Shown one piece after another: positions 1-54,383 of a stretch of DNA of 64,000 nt. The stretch is from assembly GCF_002214585.1 (NCBI RefSeq), contig NZ_CP014862.1:558001-622000 (forward strand). The letters are read 5' to 3'. Each line of letters starts with the position of its first letter. The first letter of the stretch is position 1. The stretch is from Thermococcus profundus (GTDB taxonomy: Archaea > Methanobacteriota_B > Thermococci > Thermococcales > Thermococcaceae). Below the pieces are notes generated by a model, which did not search any database, had not been told where the DNA came from, and saw nothing but the letters and a program-made list of their open reading frames with translations. The position numbers and the translations under genes were made by a program.

Positions 1-1127
1 TCATCTTCTCACTCAGCGGCGAGGGCTTGCAGCGCGACCACGGCGTTCCGGGCAGGGGCATGAAGTAGTGGGCGCGGACCTTTCCGCCCTTCGCCATTAT
101 CCATCTCATAAGTTCGATGCTCTTCCTCTGACTCTCCTCCGTCTCGTTGGGAAGGCCGACTATGAAGTCAACGACCGGCTCGAAGCTGTACTCCAGCATG
201 TACTCCACTGCCCTCTGGACGTGTTCGACCTTGTGAATCCTGTGCATTGCTTTCAGCATCGCATCGTCGCCGCTCTGGGCACCTATGGCCAACCTCCTGT
301 TGTCAGCGTAGTCTATTAAGAGTTCGAGCGTCTCAGGCAGGACGAACTCGGGTCTTACCTCGCTAGGGAAGGTGCCGTAGAACAGCCTCCTGCCTTCTTT
401 CCTCAGCGGTTGGAGGGCTTTGAGAAGGGCCTCAAGCTTGTTGAGCTTCAGTATGGCCCCGGGGCTTCCGTAGGCGAAGGCGTTCGGTGTTATGTAGCGC
501 ATGTCCTTCATCCTGCGCGAGTACTTCACGATTTGATCTATCGGTCTGTGCCTCATTCGGAGGCCCTTAATGTATGGAGTTTGACAGTAGTAGCAACCGA
601 AGGGACAGCCCCGGGTTATCTCTATTGGAGAGATCAGGCGAACGCTCTCTGGGTAAGGTGGAAAGCGCCAGAAGTCCTCCACTTTAGCAAAGCCCGTAAA
701 TGTGAACTCGCCGTTCAGGTAGAACGCGAGTCCTCTGATGCTGACTAGCTCCTTCGTTATTCTGTAGCCTGTCCTCTTCAGGGTCGTGAGAAGCTGATAG
801 AGAACCTCCTCGCCCTCGCCGATAACCGCGATATCAAACCCGAGCTGGTTGAGGGTGTGCCTAGGCATCGCTATCGCGTGGTAGCCGCCTGCAACGAGGA
901 GCGCTCCGGTTTCTTTTAGGAGTTTGACTTCTTCCCTCAGCGAACCCCATATCTCCTCAGTGAAAAAGGAGTACAGAACGACTTTTGGCTTGGCGTTCAG
1001 GATTTCGCGGAAGTCTTTGGTTATCAAAAGCTCGCTTAAATCGAACCCCTGGCTCTCCAGGGCTCCTAGGAGATGGACGAAAGCGTTGTGGTTTCTCTTT
1101 GTCATTCTGACGGCTATTTCCGGCATG
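1..1127 (-). CDS. B12-binding/radical SAM protein (MJ1487-like), C-terminus cut by window edge
   Basis: This minus-strand gene starts at the ATG at 1127 and runs off the left edge, so the stop is not seen. The first part reads as a cobalamin-binding-like Rossmann region (AGGYHAIAMP, then a DIAVIGEGEEV loop near residue 95). Around residue 172-180 comes the radical SAM cluster motif CPFGCYYC (CxxxCxxC), followed by a TIM-barrel-like region with FYGTFPSEVRPE and IGAQSGDDAMLKAMHR, typical of the family. The layout matches the archaeal B12-binding/radical SAM family first named for MJ1487. Substrate is unknown. The histone gene lies upstream on the same strand, with about 85 bp between. The fold is well supported; the exact subfamily is an inference. 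Confidence 0.8.
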
Positions 1128-1212
1128 GTTTGTGGGAGAAACAAGTTGCTTAAAACGATAACGGTACAAGAACGGGAACTTGGAAAGGAATGAAAAAAGG
1201 ACCAGAGGGCCT

Positions 1213-1416
1213 TCAGGTCCTGATGGCGAGCTTGATGTCCTCGGCCTTGACGGTCTTCCTGCCAGCGTGCCTGGCGAACTCAGCGGCCTTCCTGGCGACC
1301 TCAATAGCGTACTCCTCAAGGTGCTCGGCGAGAACCTTGGCGGCCTCCTCGCTGACCCTCTCGGCGCCAGCCTTCCTTATCAACCTGTCGATTGGAGCAA
1401 TCGGCAACTCAGCCAT
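1213..1416 (-). CDS. Archaeal histone
   Basis: A 67-residue histone-fold protein that wraps DNA as dimers and larger stacks. It begins [17 protein letters not shown] and ends AEDIKLAIR, with the paired loop residues (GAERVS and GRKTVKAED) and the three-helix core expected for HMf/HTk-type histones; the length matches the family. A GTG nine bases upstream could extend it by three residues, but the ATG at 1416 sits six bases after a strong GGAGGTG site, so it is preferred. The gene has its own TATA element (1468-1475). Thermococcus genomes usually carry two close histone paralogues; which one this is cannot be decided here. Confidence 0.96.
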
Positions 1417-1467
1417 TTCCCACACCTCCGTAAAGGGATTTTCAGTATCCTTTTAGCTACAGAAACT

Positions 1468-1475
1468 ATATAAAG
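1468..1475 (-). promoter_or_regulatory. TATA element of the histone gene
   Basis: On the minus strand the sequence reads CGAAACCTTTATATAG, an archaeal BRE plus TATA box. It lies about 55 bases before the ATG, predicting a start of transcription near 1445 and a short leader holding the GGAGGTG site. Confidence 0.6.
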
Positions 1476-1751
1476 GTTTCGGTGGATCGGGGGGTTCAGG
1501 GGGGTTCTATCAAACATCGGCCCGAGTGGGTGGGGGATGACAATAAAAAACCGGGATGTCTGGACGGTCCACTAAAAAAACGTGAAATGGGTGGAGTAAC
1601 GAACTCTCTTTAGCTCGCCCCAATCGGCATTTAAAGCTTGTAGCGCCTTTAGTATGACACCACCTATGTGGGGGTTGAACCCCTAGTTCGCAATCGACTC
1701 TGAACATCGGATCTGGCAGGGAGTTTTCTTTCATGGTTAAGAAAGCGGTGC

Positions 1752-1775
1752 TGAAACTTTGCCCAGCAAAGTTTC
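1752..1775. repeat. Inverted repeat, GAAACTTT...AAAGTTTC type, copy 1
   Basis: TGAAACTTTGCCCAGCAAAGTTTCA folds into a hairpin with arms of about 9 bases and a small loop. A second copy with the same arms lies at 2001-2024, directly after the tRNA-Val gene. Function is unknown; a transcript-end or processing hairpin is one option. Confidence 0.55.
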
Positions 1776-1896
1776 ATCAAAGTTCGCGGTTCTTGTTAGA
1801 GTGTTGCTTTTGGGAGGATTTTCTTTAGAAACTTGTTTTCTCGCCGTGAATTCCAATTCTTAGGGGCTTGTTGTCTGTGAGTTTGCTTTTTAATAG

Positions 1897-1911
1897 ACGC
1901 CCGAAGGGCGT
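1897..1911. repeat. Small hairpin ACGCCC-GAA-GGGCGT flanked by direct repeats
   Basis: A 6-bp-arm hairpin with a 3-base loop. The octamer CTGTGAGT occurs on each side (1875-1882 and 1916-1923), as a target duplication around a very small inserted piece would. It could instead be a chance repeat. Confidence 0.4.
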
Positions 1912-2000
1912 TATACTGTGAGTAAACCCCGTTAAAACTGCCAATTTGTGATGAGAATCACTGGAACCCAGCAGTTTAAAAAGAACATTCACTCTTTGAT

Positions 2001-2024
2001 GAAACTTTTCGCCAGAAAAGTTTC
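2001..2024. repeat. Inverted repeat, GAAACTTT...AAAGTTTC type, copy 2
   Basis: GAAACTTTTCGCCAGAAAAGTTTC lies two bases beyond the CCA end of tRNA-Val, on its downstream side, and is followed on the minus strand by a T-run near 1978-1984. It shares its arms with the copy at 1752-1775 and may act in ending or trimming the tRNA transcript. Confidence 0.55.
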
Positions 2025-2026
2025 TA

Positions 2027-2104
2027 TGGTGGGCCCGCGGGGATTCGAACCCCGGACCTCCACCTTGTCAGGGTGGCGTCATAACCAGTCTAGACCACGG
2101 GCCC
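2027..2104 (-). tRNA. tRNA-Val (anticodon GAC)
   Basis: The minus strand gives a full cloverleaf: acceptor GGGCCCG/CGGGCCC, D arm with GGTTATGAC, anticodon stem CCACC/GGTGG around loop CTGACAA (anticodon GAC), T arm CCGGGGTTCGAATCCCCG, discriminator A, and an encoded CCA. No intron is seen. It lies 9 bases downstream of tRNA-Ala and is probably co-transcribed with it. Confidence 0.95.
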
Positions 2105-2113
2105 GCCCAGGGA

Positions 2114-2191
<78 letters not shown>

Positions 2192-2227
2192 ACTCCCACC
2201 AACGCCGTAATCACCTATCAGGGTGGG

Positions 2228-2236
2228 TTTATAAAT
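2228..2236 (-). promoter_or_regulatory. TATA element of the tRNA-Ala/tRNA-Val unit
   Basis: Minus strand GCAAAATTTATAAACCC is a good archaeal BRE/TATA, about 40 bases before the mature 5' end of tRNA-Ala. It sits in the gap downstream of the AMP phosphorylase gene. Confidence 0.6.
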
Positions 2237-2278
2237 TTTGCGGTGTGGAGGGGAAAAGGAGGGAGGGAAAAGAAAGCA

Positions 2279-3790
2279 TCAGATGTTTCCTATTCTTTGA
2301 AGAACCATGCCCTCGATCTTGATGGGCTCGGTTCTCCTTGCAAATACTATCGCCTGATCGAGCCTAGCCTCGCTCTCGGCATGGACTGTGAAGAGCGGAT
2401 CCCCTTCCTTGACCTTCTCACCAACTTTGACGTAGAGTTCCACACCGGCTCCCTTGTCCTCGGGAGCGCCGGCGGCTCTGGCAATCCCCGTTATTGCCCT
2501 GTTGTCGATGCCGGTTACGTAGCCACTCGTCGGAGCGACGAAGGTGTAGGTCTTGTCTCCAACAGCTATGTCCTCCGGCTTGATGTCCGGGTTTCCTCCC
2601 TGTTCCTCTATGATCTCCCTCATCTTTTCATAGGCCTTTCCGCTCTCAAGGATCTCCCTAGCCATCTTCTTGCCCATTCCAGCGGGGGCAACGCCGCCCA
2701 TTTCGAGGAGTATCCCCGCGAGACCGAGGGCCTTTTCTATGAGGCTTCCAGGACCTTTGCCGGTCATGAGGGCCGAGAGGGCCTCCCTGGCTTCGAGTGC
2801 CGGGCCGACGGTGTGCCCTATCGGCTGGCCGCCGTAGGTTATTGCCACCTCAACGTACTGGCCGAGCCTCTTTCCGAGCTCAATGAAGTCCCTCGCAAGG
2901 CTCCTAGCCTGTTCAACGGTCTCCACTTTAACCCCCTTTCCGGTGGGGATGTCGATGAGGACGTACTGGCTCCCCATAGCGTACTTCTTCGACATTATGC
3001 TGGCGAGCATGAGGCCGGTCGGATCGACGCTGAGGGCGCGCTCGGACTTGATCGTTATATCATCTGCTGGAGCGAGGTTGAGGGCGCCTCCCCAGACCAT
3101 ACACGCCCCCACTTTTTCGACGATGCGCTTGATTTCCTCAAGCGAGAAGCTGACGTTCGTGAAAACTTCAACAACATCTGCAGTTCCCGCGGCGCTGGTG
3201 ATTGCCCTCGAGCTGGTTTTGGGTATAGTGAGGCCAGCCGCCGCCACTATTGGAACGACGAGGATGTTGGTCTTGTTTCCCGGGACGCCGCCTATGCTGT
3301 GGACGTCCATTATCGGCTTCCTGTCGATGTCGAGCATGTCACCGGTTTCCGCCATCGCTATGGTCAAAGCAGCTATCTCGTCCATATCAAGGCCGTTTAT
3401 CTCAAGGGCAGTCACGAAGGAGCTTATCTCGATGTCCCTGAGCTTTCTGTCAACGATGTCCCTCACGATGGCCTCTATCTCGACCTTTCTAAGTTTTTCA
3501 CCGTGCATCTTTTTCTTGATGTAGCGGACGCTCTCGGGGGTCCCAGCCGGGGCTATTTCGACGGCCTCCCCCTCCGAGAGGCTGTGGAGCTGGAGGATGT
3601 CCCTGCTTATCCCAACCTCCCCCGGGCCTACCAGGTTGCTTATAACGAGGCTCCCGTAGATGGGTTTCTTCCCGGACTCTATCCTGACGAGGTCATCCGG
3701 GTGGAGCTTCGCCTTCTTTGCCTCCTCCTCGTTTATGAAGACCGAGTACCTACCGCTGTACATGTCCAGTATCTTTACCTTGGCTCTCAT
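2279..3790 (-). CDS. AMP phosphorylase (nucleoside monophosphate phosphorylase)
   Basis: Splits AMP (also CMP and UMP) with phosphate into base and ribose 1,5-bisphosphate, feeding the archaeal route through R15P isomerase and type III RuBisCO. The protein of 503 residues has the family's length, an N-terminal archaeal domain of about 85 residues, then the thymidine-phosphorylase-like core: [30 protein letters not shown] and [17 protein letters not shown]. The start at 3790 is chosen because GGAGGG lies just upstream; 29 more in-frame codons upstream lack a ribosome site. It has its own promoter, divergent from RNase J. Function is strongly supported by whole-length motifs. Confidence 0.93.
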
Positions 3791-41890: not shown

Positions 41891-42916
41891 TCACGGGGAG
41901 GGAATTCCCTCCTCGACCACCGCTCTGCACTTCCAGAGGCCGGCTATGCTCCTCCAGGCTTTCACGTAGCCGACCAGGAACGGTATCTGGACGATTGGAG
42001 TGACCGCCGGTGCTATAGCCATCAGCCCGGTTCCGGCGGCGAGTGCTATTGCCATGGCCGTTCCCTCGTTCTTTCCGACTGAGGTGAAGGTCATCGCCAT
42101 GTGGTCTTTGTATGGTATGCCTATGGCCCTGTCAACGAAGGTCATGAAGAGCAGGGCGAGGGTGTAGTAGAGAACCAGCGGGACGAGGGCGAGGCCAACT
42201 ATGCTCGGCTTGCTGGCTATGAGCCTGGCCTTCTCCATGAAGATGAGGAAGACGATGGTGTACATACCGAGGAGCGAGATGGCCGGGAATGCCGGCTTTA
42301 TCCTGAGGAATCCCTCCGTTCCGAGCTTTTTGATTAGGTACCACCTTGTCAAAACGCCGAGTATCATTGGGGTTATGACGACTATGAGGATGGTCTTTAT
42401 GAGGAGCCAGACGGATATGCTGACGTGGTAGCTTGAGGCAAAGATCTTGAGCCATCCCGGAACTGTAACTATTGCCAGCGTGAAGCTGAGGGCGACGACG
42501 ATCGTTGCGAGCTCTATGTTGCCCTTCGTAAAGCCGGTGTAGGCTATGCTCATCGAGGAGCACGGAACGACAACGGCCAGGAGAAGGCCGAGGGCGAGCT
42601 GGTGGTTGATCGGGCGGAAGAGTTCGGTGAGCCATATCGCTCCGTACATGATGAGCGGCGAAATGATGAGACCCATTGTGAGGGCTATGGTGAGCTGCTT
42701 CCCGAGCTTCGCGCTGTTCTTGAGCTCGCCGAGGCGAAGGTTGATCATCATCGGGTAGATCATGCTGATGACGACGAGCATGTTGAGGGTTTTGAGAGTG
42801 CCCTTGTACTTCTCCACCTCGGCGTGAGTGCCGACGTAAAAGCCGGCTATCATAGCGAGAGTAACGTAAACCGGAAGGTATTTGTCTAGATGGTTCTTCA
42901 GCTTAAGCCAGTTCAT
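41891..42916 (-). CDS. ACR3/bile-acid symporter family carrier (arsenite efflux type)
   Basis: A 341-residue membrane protein of about ten spans. It has IYPMMINLRLGEL, the conserved VVPCSSMSIAYTGFTKGNIE (cysteine in the half-helix, the ACR3 ion site), SVGKNEGTAMAIALAAGTG and the repeat fold of the family. ACR3 members pump arsenite; other members move small organic anions. The gene overlaps the upstream universal-stress gene by four bases, so it belongs to that operon. A debris piece of a similar carrier lies 1 kb upstream. Confidence 0.82.
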   Translation of the reverse strand: MNWLKLKNHLDKYLPVYVTLAMIAGFYVGTHAEVEKYKGTLKTLNMLVVISMIYPMMINLRLGELKNSAKLGKQLTIALTMGLIISPLIMYGAIWLTELFRPINHQLALGLLLAVVVPCSSMSIAYTGFTKGNIELATIVVALSFTLAIVTVPGWLKIFASSYHVSISVWLLIKTILIVVITPMILGVLTRWYLIKKLGTEGFLRIKPAFPAISLLGMYTIVFLIFMEKARLIASKPSIVGLALVPLVLYYTLALLFMTFVDRAIGIPYKDHMAMTFTSVGKNEGTAMAIALAAGTGLMAIAPAVTPIVQIPFLVGYVKAWRSIAGLWKCRAVVEEGIPSP

Positions 42917-43401
42917 TCCCCTTCACCTCCGCACCTGCATTTTGGTTTGAGGAGCAATACCGGCCGGAAGGTCTTCTTCACGACGCGCATGGCTGTTGAG
43001 CCGAGGAGCTCCTTGGAGAAGCCGAGCTTCCCGTGGGTCGGGAGGAGTATGAGCGAAACGTCCTCTTCTTCAGCAACCTTAACTATCTCCTCCCAGGGAA
43101 CTCCGAATCTAACAACGGGCTTGACCTTCTCGGTCTTGAAAACCCTCTTGACGTCCTCCACTTTGGCTTGGAGCTTTTCCATGACCTTTTCCCTGAGCTT
43201 CTCTTCAACATCTTTCAGCTCGAGCTCCTCATTCTCGTAGAGGAGGGAGTAGCCGTTCATGAGATCCTCAATGGTTCCCTCGTCTATGACGTGGAGCAGG
43301 ATAACCTCGCCCACGGGCACTTCGTTGACCTTTTCGAACCGCTTGGCGGCCTTCTCGGCCCCATCACTGAAATCAGTCGGAAACAACACTTTCCGAAACA
43401 T
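42913..43401 (-). CDS. Universal stress protein
   Basis: A 162-residue UspA-fold protein: FRKVLFPTDFSDGAEKAAKR at the start (nucleotide-contact Asp), SLILLPTHGKLGFSKELLGS near 120 (G-x2-G-x9-GS ATP loop) and VLLLKPKCRCG at the end with two cysteines. The ATG at 43401 follows GAGGTGAGATC; ten upstream in-frame codons lack a site. Its stop overlaps the start of the ACR3-like gene, so they are co-translated; a link between carrier and stress domain also exists in the permease at 27489. Confidence 0.88.
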   Translation of the reverse strand: MFRKVLFPTDFSDGAEKAAKRFEKVNEVPVGEVILLHVIDEGTIEDLMNGYSLLYENEELELKDVEEKLREKVMEKLQAKVEDVKRVFKTEKVKPVVRFGVPWEEIVKVAEEEDVSLILLPTHGKLGFSKELLGSTAMRVVKKTFRPVLLLKPKCRCGGEGE

Positions 43402-43520
43402 GGATCTCACCTCATTTGGCAATTTTTTCACTCCAAATTGATTTCATCTTTAGGGTAGCCTAATCATTTAAAAGCATTGCTGGTCAAAATTGGGTAAGGT
43501 GTGGTAAAACATGGGATTGA

Positions 43521-50896: not shown

Positions 50897-51847
50897 TCAT
50901 TTACCCAGCAGACCTTTGATTATCAGCCCCGTTGCTTCTTCCTCGGTTAATCCCTTGGCCATCAGTTGGATAAGCTGGGCGTCGTTTATCCTGCCTATGG
51001 AAGCTTCGTGTGTAAGCTCCGCCTTATCGTTCTTCACCCTCAGGAGCGGCACAGTTTGAACGTCCGCGTTCCCTTTAACTATCTCGTGGCACTCCACATG
51101 GCCTTTCGCATAGTCCCCCAAGCCGTAGGCCTCGTTCACGACGTTCACCTTAGCTTCGTCGAAGGCTATGACAGTGCTCTTGAGGTTGGCCCTTGAGTGG
51201 GCTCCCTCAAGGTAGGCGACCTCCCTGATCTCAACGGAGTCATCTTTAACCGCCTTGACCCTCGACTCGAGCTCAAGGACTGCCCTCTCGCCGAGCTTGA
51301 CTATCATCTCAAGCTTCAGCTCCTTAGCCCTGTGCTTTGTAAGTGAGAACTTTCCAGTGTAGCGGGCGTTTCTTTCGAGTTCAACCTCCGTCTTTGATAT
51401 CATCCTCACGCCTTCGCCATGAATATGCTCATCTTCGTAGGAAATCCGGGAGTTCTCACCGGCTTTTATAACCGTTAGAGCCTCGTGGGTAAAGTCCTTC
51501 GCGTAGGGGAAGATGCAGTGGGAAAGGAACTTCACCTTAGAGTTCCTGCCGGCCTTGATGTTGAAGACGATCTTCTGATAGCCCTCACTCTTCAGGTAGC
51601 CTGTGCAGAGGTGTATCGGGAACGGAAGCTCTACATTGTCTTCTATCTCAACATCCGCCTTGACGCCGTTCTCTATCTCCTCTCCCTTTATCCGAACCCC
51701 TGGGGCGTTGTTGAAGCCGATTATCTTCTCCCCGCTTATGATTATCGCCGCTATCCTGTCGCCGAAGAGAGAGGTGTCGAGGCCCTCCTTCTCGTAAACA
51801 TCTATTAAGGCCTCGTACTCCTTAACGCGGTCAATCCTTATCGTCAT
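50897..51847 (-). CDS. sufB: SufB/SufD family Fe-S scaffold
   Basis: A 316-residue beta-helix protein that with SufC assembles iron-sulfur clusters. It has DNVELPFPIHLCTGYLKSEG, SKVKFLSHCIFPYAKDFTHE, SRISYEDEHIHGEGVRMISK and the late motif GRINDAQLIQLMAKGLTEEE with ATGLIIKGLLG, the usual SufB/D C-terminal helices. Archaeal SufB/D proteins of this short form are common. It overlaps the sufC end by 17 bases on the same strand. Whether it acts as B or D, or alone, is not clear. Confidence 0.92.
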   Translation of the reverse strand: MTIRIDRVKEYEALIDVYEKEGLDTSLFGDRIAAIIISGEKIIGFNNAPGVRIKGEEIENGVKADVEIEDNVELPFPIHLCTGYLKSEGYQKIVFNIKAGRNSKVKFLSHCIFPYAKDFTHEALTVIKAGENSRISYEDEHIHGEGVRMISKTEVELERNARYTGKFSLTKHRAKELKLEMIVKLGERAVLELESRVKAVKDDSVEIREVAYLEGAHSRANLKSTVIAFDEAKVNVVNEAYGLGDYAKGHVECHEIVKGNADVQTVPLLRVKNDKAELTHEASIGRINDAQLIQLMAKGLTEEEATGLIIKGLLGK

Positions 51848-52562
51848 CCCCCACCATCCCCGTCAGAAAGCATCTTCCACAGGTCTTCTTGTAGTAATCG
51901 ACCACCTCACGGGAGAACCCCTTCTTGAGGAGCCTGCCGGCGCAGACGAAGTAAGCAAAATCCGTCTTGGCCGCTATCTCTTCGTGGTGGGTGATGAGAA
52001 TCACAGTGGTTCCCACCTTTCTGAAGTACTCCAGAACGTTCTCAATGAGTTCTCCCGCTGTTATGTCGAGGCCAGAATCAGGTTCATCGAGTATCGCATA
52101 CCTGGACCTCAGCAGGAGGAGGGATGCCAGCTCAATCCTCTTTCTCTCGCCGCCGCTCAGGCTCTTATCAACGAAGCGGTGGGCGTAAAGTTCGTAGGGG
52201 AGCCCAACTAGCTCGAGGACTTCTTTAAGTTCGTTTTTGTCCACTTTGACCTTTCCGCCGAGGGTGAGGTACTCCTTAACCGTTATCCCGTCGTAGCGTG
52301 CAGGCTCCTGCCAGAGCAGAGTAATCCCGAGCCTCGCTCGCTCTGTTACGTTCAGCCCGGTTATATCTCGCTCATCAAGCAGAACTTCGCCCCCGGTGGG
52401 CTTCACGACTCCCATTAAAACCTGGGCTATGGTCGATTTTCCCGCCCCGTTGGGGCCAAGGATGGAATAGCTCATGCCCTCTTGGAACTTCATGTTTATT
52501 TCGCTTAGAATCCTCCGCCCGTTCCTCTCGTAGGTGATGTCCCTTAAACACAGCATAGGCAT
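51831..52562 (-). CDS. sufC: SufC ATPase for Fe-S cluster assembly
   Basis: A 244-residue ABC-type ATPase without membrane part. It has Walker A GPNGAGKSTIAQVLMG, the signature KSLSGGERKRIELASLLL, Walker B AILDEPDSGLDI, and VILITHHEEI. The residue context (SGLDI) is that of SufC. TATA at about 52584-52592 (minus strand AATTTTAAATTTC) puts the start of transcription near 52562, so the ATG at 52562 or 52556 is leaderless. The promoter carries a 22-base near-palindrome. It forms an operon with sufB. Confidence 0.93.
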   Translation of the reverse strand: MPMLCLRDITYERNGRRILSEINMKFQEGMSYSILGPNGAGKSTIAQVLMGVVKPTGGEVLLDERDITGLNVTERARLGITLLWQEPARYDGITVKEYLTLGGKVKVDKNELKEVLELVGLPYELYAHRFVDKSLSGGERKRIELASLLLLRSRYAILDEPDSGLDITAGELIENVLEYFRKVGTTVILITHHEEIAAKTDFAYFVCAGRLLKKGFSREVVDYYKKTCGRCFLTGMVGDDDKD

Positions 52563-52583: not shown

Positions 52584-52617
52584 AAATTTAAAATTTTCTG
52601 GACAGTTCTGCCCAGAA
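52584..52617 (-). promoter_or_regulatory. sufCB promoter with 22-base near-palindrome
   Basis: The site TTCTGG-ACAGTTCTGC-CCAGAA (52596-52617) matches its reverse complement at 18 of 22 positions. It lies just upstream of the TATA box of sufC and about 80 bases before the divergent ferredoxin gene, whose TATA-like TTTTAAATAAATG is at 52653-52665. One regulator, for example of iron or redox state, could act on both directions. The regulator is not identified. Confidence 0.5.
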
Positions 52618-52691
52618 CCCTTGGTTGGAAACTAAGACATATGAAAAAGATTTTAAATAAATGTAACCTAGCATAAACTGAGGTGAGTGAA

Positions 52692-53108
52692 ATGGCCGAC
52701 GTTAAGGCCCCGATCATTGGAAAGGATGCCCTCGGGCGCGAAGTCAAGGATCTGAGCGTTATTCCATGGTGGGGCATTGATAGAAAGGAGATAGAATGGT
52801 ATCCAAAAATAAACTACAGTGTCTGCGCCCGCTGTGGCCTCTGCTTCGTTACCTGTGGGAGGAGGGTCTTTGACTGGGACACCGAGGAGGGGAAGCCAGT
52901 CGTTGCTAGGCCCTACAACTGTCTCGTAGGGTGCAACACGTGCGCGATGGTCTGCCCCTGCAACGCCATTGAGTTCCCGCCGAAGGAGTACGTTAAGAAG
53001 CTCGTCGTGGAGCATGGAGTCATAAGAAAAGCCTTCGAAATAACGAAGCCCCTGACGAAGAAGAGGGAAGAGAGCACCAACGGAGCGGAGAGCGTGTTCA
53101 ATCCCTGA
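52692..53108 (+). CDS. Dicluster ferredoxin-like protein
   Basis: A 138-residue iron-sulfur protein: CARCGLCFVTC near residue 42 (CxxCxxCxxxC) and NCLVGCNTCAMVCPCNAIEF near 75, enough cysteines for two [4Fe-4S] clusters. The 30-residue basic tail (VRKAFEITKPLTKKREES-like) is unusual. The ATG at 52692 follows GAGGTGAG. It is divergent from sufC with a shared control region, and its end overlaps the NifX-like gene by 11 bases on the other strand. It may carry electrons or clusters for Suf assembly. Confidence 0.87.
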   Translation: MADVKAPIIGKDALGREVKDLSVIPWWGIDRKEIEWYPKINYSVCARCGLCFVTCGRRVFDWDTEEGKPVVARPYNCLVGCNTCAMVCPCNAIEFPPKEYVKKLVVEHGVIRKAFEITKPLTKKREESTNGAESVFNP

Positions 53109-53424
53109 GAAGGTTTAGAACGTCTTTAACATTTTTCCCAGCTTCCACCTTGATTATTCTGACTCCACCAGCGTCAAGTATCGCCTTTCCCTTCGGGCAG
53201 TCCATTGGGGTTAACAGCACGTTCACCCCAAGGTTGACCAGAAAAAGAGCCACCTTGGAGCCGGCACCGTAGGGCTCTCTTCGGTATGGGTTCTCGACAA
53301 CTTCCACGTTTTTCACTTCCCCATCCTCAAGCTCAACAACTGTGAAAGTTTCAGCCCTTACGAGGCTCTCATGAACCCCATCATCCAATCCGCCTTTCGA
53401 AGTCGGAATGGCCACTCTAGTCAT
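53098..53424 (-). CDS. NifX/NifB-C-terminal-like protein 2
   Basis: A 108-residue relative of the dinitrogenase cofactor biosynthesis family: TRVAIPTSKGGLDDGVHESL, VRAETFTVVELEDGEVKNVE, GAGSKVALFLVNLGVNVLLT, PMDCPKGKAILDAGG. It lacks the SGHFGRA loop of the protein at 45906. The ATG at 53424 follows GGTGAG, eight bases inside the CDF gene end, so it is co-transcribed with the CDF exporter. Its end overlaps the convergent ferredoxin gene by 11 bases. Confidence 0.83.
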   Translation of the reverse strand: MTRVAIPTSKGGLDDGVHESLVRAETFTVVELEDGEVKNVEVVENPYRREPYGAGSKVALFLVNLGVNVLLTPMDCPKGKAILDAGGVRIIKVEAGKNVKDVLNLLRD

Positions 53425-54313
53425 TCTTCTCACCGCAGATCGTGTTTTTATCTTCGCACCTTCCAGCCTCAAGCTGAACGGTTACGTGGGTTATTCCAAA
53501 GCGTTTAAGCTTTTCCTCAACCTCGTCTATGAACCTCTGCGCCTCCCTTATAGGCATGTCGTCGACTTCGACGTGGCACTCGAAGTGGATTTCCTTTTCC
53601 CCTATCCGCCAGACGTGGAAGTGGTGGGCGTTCCTGATGCCGGGGATGGCCTCGATCTCTTTTTTGATCTCGTTTAGATCAATATCCGGTGCCGCCTCCA
53701 TAAGCACTTCAATGCTCTCCTTTAATATCTCGTAGCCCTCTTTGAAGATGTAGAGCGAGATCAGAATCGTAACGAGGGGGTCTACCCAGAGGACCTTCCA
53801 CCGTATTATCGCGATTCCGCCGACAACAACCGCAACCGATGAGAGGGTGTCGCTAAGGAGGTGCAGATAGGCGGAGCGGACGTTCATGCTCTCGTGTGCG
53901 TGACTGTGAAGGAGGAGAACTGAGATCAAGTTGGCGAAGAGGCCTATCAAAGCAACGCCGAGCATAAGCGGGCCGTCTATCGGCTCCGGGTTCTTGAAGC
54001 GTCTGTATGCTTCAATGAGAAGGAAGAGCGCAACACCGACCAGAACAGCGGAATTAACGAACGCTACCAGAATCTCGGCCCTCTTGTAGCCAAAGGTATA
54101 CTTCTCGTTCCTCTCCCTTTCGCCGATCTTTATGGCCAGATAGCTCGCGAGGATGCTCATAGAGTCGCTGAAGTTGTGGAGGGAATCGCTGAGGAGGGCG
54201 AGACTTCCAGAGATTATGCCGCCGATGACCTCGGCTAGGGTTATTACAATGTTGAGGGCAAAGGAAAACAGCATCCTGCCCTTAAGCTCGCCGTGGTGAT
54301 GATGGTGGGCCAT
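53417..54313 (-). CDS. Cation diffusion facilitator (metal exporter)
   Basis: A 298-residue CDF carrier with a His-rich start (MAHHHHHGELKGR), six membrane spans with the metal-site Asp and His pairs (SDSLHNFSDSMSILASY and HLLSDTLSSVAVVVGG), and a C-terminal cytoplasmic domain (GIRNAHHFHVWRIGEKEIHF, ECHVEVDD) of the zinc-sensing ferredoxin fold. The His tail probably aids Zn, Fe or Mn binding. It lies upstream of the NifX-like gene on the same strand and divergent from hypA. Ion preference is not clear. Confidence 0.92.
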   Translation of the reverse strand: MAHHHHHGELKGRMLFSFALNIVITLAEVIGGIISGSLALLSDSLHNFSDSMSILASYLAIKIGERERNEKYTFGYKRAEILVAFVNSAVLVGVALFLLIEAYRRFKNPEPIDGPLMLGVALIGLFANLISVLLLHSHAHESMNVRSAYLHLLSDTLSSVAVVVGGIAIIRWKVLWVDPLVTILISLYIFKEGYEILKESIEVLMEAAPDIDLNEIKKEIEAIPGIRNAHHFHVWRIGEKEIHFECHVEVDDMPIREAQRFIDEVEEKLKRFGITHVTVQLEAGRCEDKNTICGEKND

Positions 54314-54358: not shown

Positions 54359-54383
54359 CGTTATGTGAACGGATAGTTTAAAA
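54359..54383 (+). promoter_or_regulatory. hypA promoter with SurR-like site
   Basis: GTTATGTGAACGGATAGTT (54359-54377) contains GTT-n5-AAC-n5-GTT. SurR, the sulfur-response regulator of Thermococcales, prefers GTT-n3-AAC-n5-GTT, so the second half fits exactly and the first spacing differs. It overlaps the TATA-like AGTTTAAAACTC of hypA. The link is suggestive only. Confidence 0.35.

Follow-up and report, generated by a model that had tools for sequence, protein, structure and literature searches.

Two archaeal activators are the closest described parallels to the element analysed here. Tar of Thermococcus kodakarensis (TK0271) is an activator of aromatic amino acid operons, with the operator TGGACA-N8-TGTCCA located ahead of BRE/TATA (PMC6737238). 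In Pyrococcus furiosus, copA is stimulated by CopR, which recognizes TTNNCAWWWTGNNAA immediately before BRE and is concerned with a copper regulon (PMC7830388). According to the latter paper, the genes that copper induces in P. furiosus include some for Fe-S assembly. For a third regulator, SurR, the consensus GTTn3AACn5GTT is given in the available part of PMC12162507.

The window, i.e. the whole stretch of 64,000 nucleotides of Thermococcus profundus DNA analysed in this work, contains at 52596-52617 the 22-bp near-palindrome TTCTGGACAGTTCTGCCCAGAA, which is symmetric at 18 of its 22 positions, with arms TTCTGG/CCAGAA, just as described in an earlier note. It is located within a divergent promoter region, flanked by a sufC-like ATPase gene on the minus strand (51831-52562, start at 52562 or 52556) and by a 4Fe-4S dicluster ferredoxin gene on the plus strand (52692-53108, ATG at 52692; PF12838, 27.8 bits, cut-off 27). 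The position by the sufC TATA box, also claimed in that note, is borne out: a TATA-like TTTTAAAT is found at 52593-52586 of the minus strand, 2 bp from the palindrome, preceded by the BRE GAAAA (52598-52594, minus strand), so that the proximal outer arm of the palindrome is the BRE of sufC. A TATA-like TTTTAAAT is also recognizable from the sequence upstream of the ferredoxin gene, at 52651-52658 of the plus strand.

Downstream of the sufC-like gene lies a SufBD-core gene of 316 aa (50897-51847, minus strand; PF01458, 84 bits, cut-off 27). The best family match of the ATPase is TIGR01978, whose cut-off of 212.8 is not reached (145.6 bits). A SufC protein was detected at E <= 1e-40 in at least 43 of 94 family genomes, a lower bound with 29 candidates scored per genome, and a SufBD-core partner in 41 of the 94 at the same threshold. 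Since the score falls under the cut-off, the pair is found in less than half of the genomes and P. furiosus is described, in the available text, as having SufB, SufC and SufD, the SufC and SufBD of the window are probably an accessory pair. Beside the ferredoxin gene, a small gene (53098-53472, minus strand) looks by eye like a dinitrogenase-cofactor (NifX-like) gene; similar genes, which we also take by eye to be NifX-like, adjoin the ferredoxin gene in relatives (e.g. L031:1036-1407).

The symmetry as such was dropped as evidence, because near-palindromes are as frequent in the window as in shuffled sequences: 22-mers symmetric at 18 or more positions number 12, against 3 to 13 in ten Markov shuffles. 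In the 2.04-Mb genome, there is a single occurrence of the exact arms at this spacing, and two matches with up to one mismatch are found in the window, against 0.43 expected. What does stand above the chance level is the conservation in relatives of the core and of its register to the TATA box. The conserved unit is TGGNCR-N4-YGNCCA, 16 bp in length, located at 52599-52614 (TGGACAGTTCTGCCCA, found here as TGGACA-N4-TGCCCA) in a fixed register with the sufC BRE/TATA; of the 22 bp originally proposed, it is the inner 16 that form this unit.

The core resembles the Tar operator in its half-sites, TGGACA/TGTCCA, and in its place directly upstream of BRE/TATA, but the spacer is 4 instead of 8 and the targets of Tar are aromatic amino acid operons. 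With its half-sites equal to those of Tar but 4 bp apart, 52599-52614 does not qualify as a Tar operator; the idea of a Tar relative as the regulator is a lead, not a result. With the CopR operator, which can lie between divergent promoters, it shares a CA...TG dyad directly upstream of BRE; the spacer is 3 for CopR and 4 here, the flanking bases are different and the CopR regulon is concerned with copper. TTNNCAWWWTGNNAA was rejected on both CA-TG distance and flanks. The Ptr2 motif of M. jannaschii, GGACGATTTTCGTCC, was also considered, and its spacing is off by one base. The place of the core immediately before BRE, at a constant register, is the one expected of a BRE-proximal activator site. 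The motif is not described in the available text of PMC6737238, PMC12162507, PMC10746257, PMC7830388, PMC6316755 and PMC3407056, nor in the rest of the partially accessible literature searched, which lies mostly outside subscription journals and is no proof of its being unpublished.

A SurR-type long site, AACCCTTGGTTGGAAAC, which fits GTTn3AACn5GTT, is found at 52616-52632 of the plus strand and overlaps the distal arm of the palindrome by 2 bp, whereas the palindrome core is not of the SurR type. The half-consensus GTTn3AAC is found at the same position in 33 of 41 distinct sufC upstream regions. Other SurR-type long sites of the window are found at 54368, 56898 and 58335, within a region of hydrogenase-maturation-like genes.

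The sufC upstream regions were gathered from the 94 family genomes, by using protein-search loci and sequence stretches, and comprise the 41 distinct sequences. Palindrome, BRE and TATA can be aligned across them without gaps. The earlier note had proposed that absence of the motif from the suf promoters of close relatives would speak against it; the opposite was found, as 38 of the 41 regions match at least 16 of the 18 positions of YGNCCANNAANNYTTAAA, which covers the TATA-proximal half and the TATA box. This half is the better conserved one, and symmetry over the palindrome reaches at least 14 of 22 positions in 22 regions and at least 16 in 15. The site is lost in three regions (L007, L112 and L113). 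In one genome (G065, L008) the place of sufC as divergent partner of the ferredoxin gene is taken by the universal stress gene described below, with the operator still present between the two. In L014, L016 and L017 the palindrome is retained though sufC is not beside the ferredoxin gene. In these three loci the ferredoxin gene is followed (about 960-3390) by what appear by eye to be arsenate-reductase-like and ACR3-like genes. In a further genome, an accessory sufC match (G090:C3:80181-80870, L114) contains five in-frame stops, and the TATA-proximal half-site is still recognizable.

For genome-wide searches, core, BRE and TATA were joined in the composite pattern TGGNCRNNNNYGNCCANNAANNYTTAWA, which the sufC promoter of the window matches without mismatches (52587-52614, minus strand). 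The pattern was built from the promoters of sufC, of DUF438/TusA, of a membrane protein (L062/L077) and of a Pyrococcus-side molybdopterin protein (L301), and the matches at these promoters are therefore not independent. With up to one mismatch, 178 strand matches were found in 68 of the 94 family genomes, against none in all 94 for the reversed pattern, which is the only genome-wide control used; no matches were found in the genera g5 (7 genomes) and g6 (1 genome). In the T. profundus genome, good matches are found only at suf and DUF438/TusA. A looser pattern, TTCTGGNCNNNNNNGNCCAGAA, and the bare core also exceed their reversed control. However, bare-core sites number 18 in the own genome and 12 of the 15 with loci fall inside ORFs, and for this reason the excess was not used: the decisive step is the addition of BRE/TATA to the core. 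A matrix of 28 sites, being picked by the pattern itself, is illustrative only. A scan of genome contigs with TTCTGGNCANNNNTGNCCAGAA, which yielded almost only bacteria among the matches listed, was set aside.

Of all the composite loci, 26 were inspected: recurrent or functionally related genes have their promoters at 23 of them, and 3 look stray. Sequences and translations were sorted into operon classes by eye, and family tests were performed afterwards on selected proteins only. The next-best match in the own genome, with two mismatches, has a DUF438-hemerythrin-PAS gene on one side and a TusA/DUF1858 gene on the other; here the composite matches in both directions, with the core midway between two TATA boxes. 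Of 31 upstream regions of the DUF438 gene, 24 have, by eye, the core directly in front of it. In the other seven the gene comes after another one, and the core is found before that first gene in L309, L315 and L316; in L309 the first gene is flavodiiron-like.

Outside the building set, the targets include DUF59, SufT, canonical suf, PfpI, NadA, maturase, reductase and universal stress protein genes. The composite is carried by the promoters of a FeS_assembly_P (DUF59) pair, with rubrerythrin nearby in L440, of a SufT-like protein, of the DJ-1/PfpI deglycase, of NadA and of a molybdopterin Fe4S4 oxidoreductase, all assigned by family tests. A looser composite scan (up to two mismatches, 11 genomes) added a tungsten-cofactor radical-SAM maturase, a CoA-disulfide reductase, a universal stress protein with a SBF/ACR3-like transporter and, in two genomes only, a canonical sufC (TIGR01978, 274 bits, cut-off 212.8), with the families again tested. 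The DUF59 pair, the SufT-like gene and canonical sufC extend the targets to further Fe-S assembly operons. A poorer fit to the Fe-S theme is seen for two other targets, RuBisCO and a sulfite-oxidase-like molybdopterin protein. Matches which are chance-like or unexplained are L366, L393 and L396 (up to one mismatch), whose labels are by eye, and L436 and L439 from the looser scan. Away from suf, the distal half may be degenerate or a direct copy; the latter often replaces the inverted one at promoters of PfpI, radical-SAM and universal-stress genes. In one genome (G001), an iron-sulfur gene with CDGSH and Fer4_19 domains (L062:763-1449) is divergent from the small membrane-protein gene, with the composite between them.

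A second, weaker composite site is found in the window itself, at 43469-43496 of the minus strand (three mismatches), before a universal stress protein gene (42913-43401, minus strand; PF00582, 87.7 bits), which is overlapped by a co-directional SBF/ACR3-like transporter gene (41891-42916, minus strand; PF01758, 154 bits). Orthologous universal-stress promoters (L433-L435) match the composite with one to two mismatches, and a TTAGG-like palindrome adjoins it. In the window, a DtxR-like palindrome, TTAGGGTAGCCTAA, lies just beyond the TATA box of this promoter (43450-43463); it is the single exact match in the window to the DtxR-like motif TTAGGN4CCTAA, and none is present at suf.

The core is conserved, keeps its register and recurs before functionally related genes, and the palindrome is very probably, as judged from sequence comparison, a real gene-control site. 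Its presence at one fixed promoter distance before many Fe-S assembly and redox-stress genes of Thermococcus and Pyrococcus relatives points to a shared control protein; the earlier note had suggested that it may be the site of an Fe-S or iron regulator, and the element does precede further genes of Fe-S assembly and redox functions, as expected of an Fe-S regulator. The reading which we favour, with somewhat better than even confidence, is that the palindrome holds the operator of a probably dimeric factor, most likely an activator, for a Thermococcaceae Fe-S, redox and metal-stress regulon. Such a sequence-specific transcription factor would read TGNNCA-N4-TGNCCA, in which the two half-sites are separated by roughly a helical turn, and would bind immediately before BRE, at a constant register to TATA. 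As with Tar and CopR, which occupy the same place, it would most likely activate sufC by aiding TFB/TBP; the signal would be Fe-S, thiol or metal stress. The predicted regulon would take in genes for Fe-S cluster assembly, for Fe-S enzymes and for redox/metal stress, and the SurR-type site over the distal arm suggests that, at sufC/ferredoxin, this DNA also serves sulfur and redox control by SurR. Against the regulon reading stand the three sufC promoters which lack the site, the lack of matches in g5 and g6, the small number of good matches in the own genome, the restriction of canonical sufC to two genomes, the poor thematic fit of RuBisCO and the sulfite-oxidase-like protein and the use of the reversed pattern as the single genome-wide control. 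The regulator gene for the operator was not found.

We thus favour activation over repression, and consider an alternative TFB possible. A factor binding the same operator might instead cover the BRE edge and block TFB, to be released by stress of the Fe-S, redox or metal kind, much as SufR or IscR repress in bacteria, where suf regulators are often repressors. The proximal half does abut and overlap the BRE, but TATA and start are left uncovered and the known archaeal activators bind directly upstream of BRE, which leaves repression rather unlikely. The rigid register to TATA, the weaker conservation of the distal half and the two facing copies at DUF438/TusA could also be accounted for by an extended BRE for an alternative TFB, with no separate regulator, the dyad arising from two such promoters in head-to-head arrangement. 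At sufC, however, the distal half is kept without an adjoining TATA box, and the distal TGNNCA is kept in most sampled classes (28 sites, a set picked by the pattern), so that we regard this explanation as improbable. That the palindrome is fortuitous, and only the SurR site and BRE/TATA are conserved, would suit the common occurrence of comparable symmetry in the window and the overlap of both outer arms with other elements; it is contradicted by the inter-arm core, a conserved element found again before unrelated operons, including DUF438, at an unchanged distance from TATA, and is very hard to sustain.

A candidate regulator, a 128-aa HTH protein encoded beside the TusA-like gene, was also considered. 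Its gene adjoins one target, its three cysteines are conserved in 34 of 34 distinct sequences and, in a few genomes (L323-L325, L330, L376), the core precedes the TATA box of its own promoter. Yet no full-length match was found in G019, G041, G062, G066 and G067, all with the composite at sufC, by which the protein is excluded as sole regulator, and a different, ATTCCRNNYGTCAT-like motif is found in its promoter in 30 of 34 cases; its identity with the factor is accordingly rated as highly doubtful. The gene (L179:2150-2533; G000:C1:1167889-1168272) encodes a C-terminal Cys-x2-His...Cys-x2-Cys and largely co-occurs with DUF438, and the protein is a candidate redox or Fe-S sensor. The motif ATGACNNNNGTCAT or ATTCCRNNYGTCAT, found in the 30 HTH promoters and twice at DUF438/TusA (L179, about 1450-1560), is likely the operator of the HTH protein itself.

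To our knowledge, the control of Fe-S cluster assembly in anaerobic hyperthermophilic archaea is poorly known. The bacterial IscR/SufR regulons have the same kind of targets as the one proposed here (suf, DUF59/SufT, Fe-S enzymes), and their operator sequence differs from the present operator. There is perhaps an even chance that a single factor, acting in the BRE/TATA register, governs a new Fe-S and thiol/metal stress regulon of Thermococcaceae, an archaeal counterpart of IscR/SufR with a different operator. Its members would be the canonical and accessory suf genes, DUF59/SufT, the flavodiiron-DUF438-TusA unit, DJ-1 and NadA, with SurR layered on it at suf/ferredoxin and possibly DtxR at the universal stress gene. 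Operator, register and list of target promoters would make the regulator directly accessible by DNA affinity pull-down, and the target promoters would offer a natural series for the study of archaeal BRE-proximal control. Scattered genes of unclear role, such as DUF438, the TusA-like gene, the accessory SufC/SufBD pair and DJ-1, would be brought together into one testable regulon.
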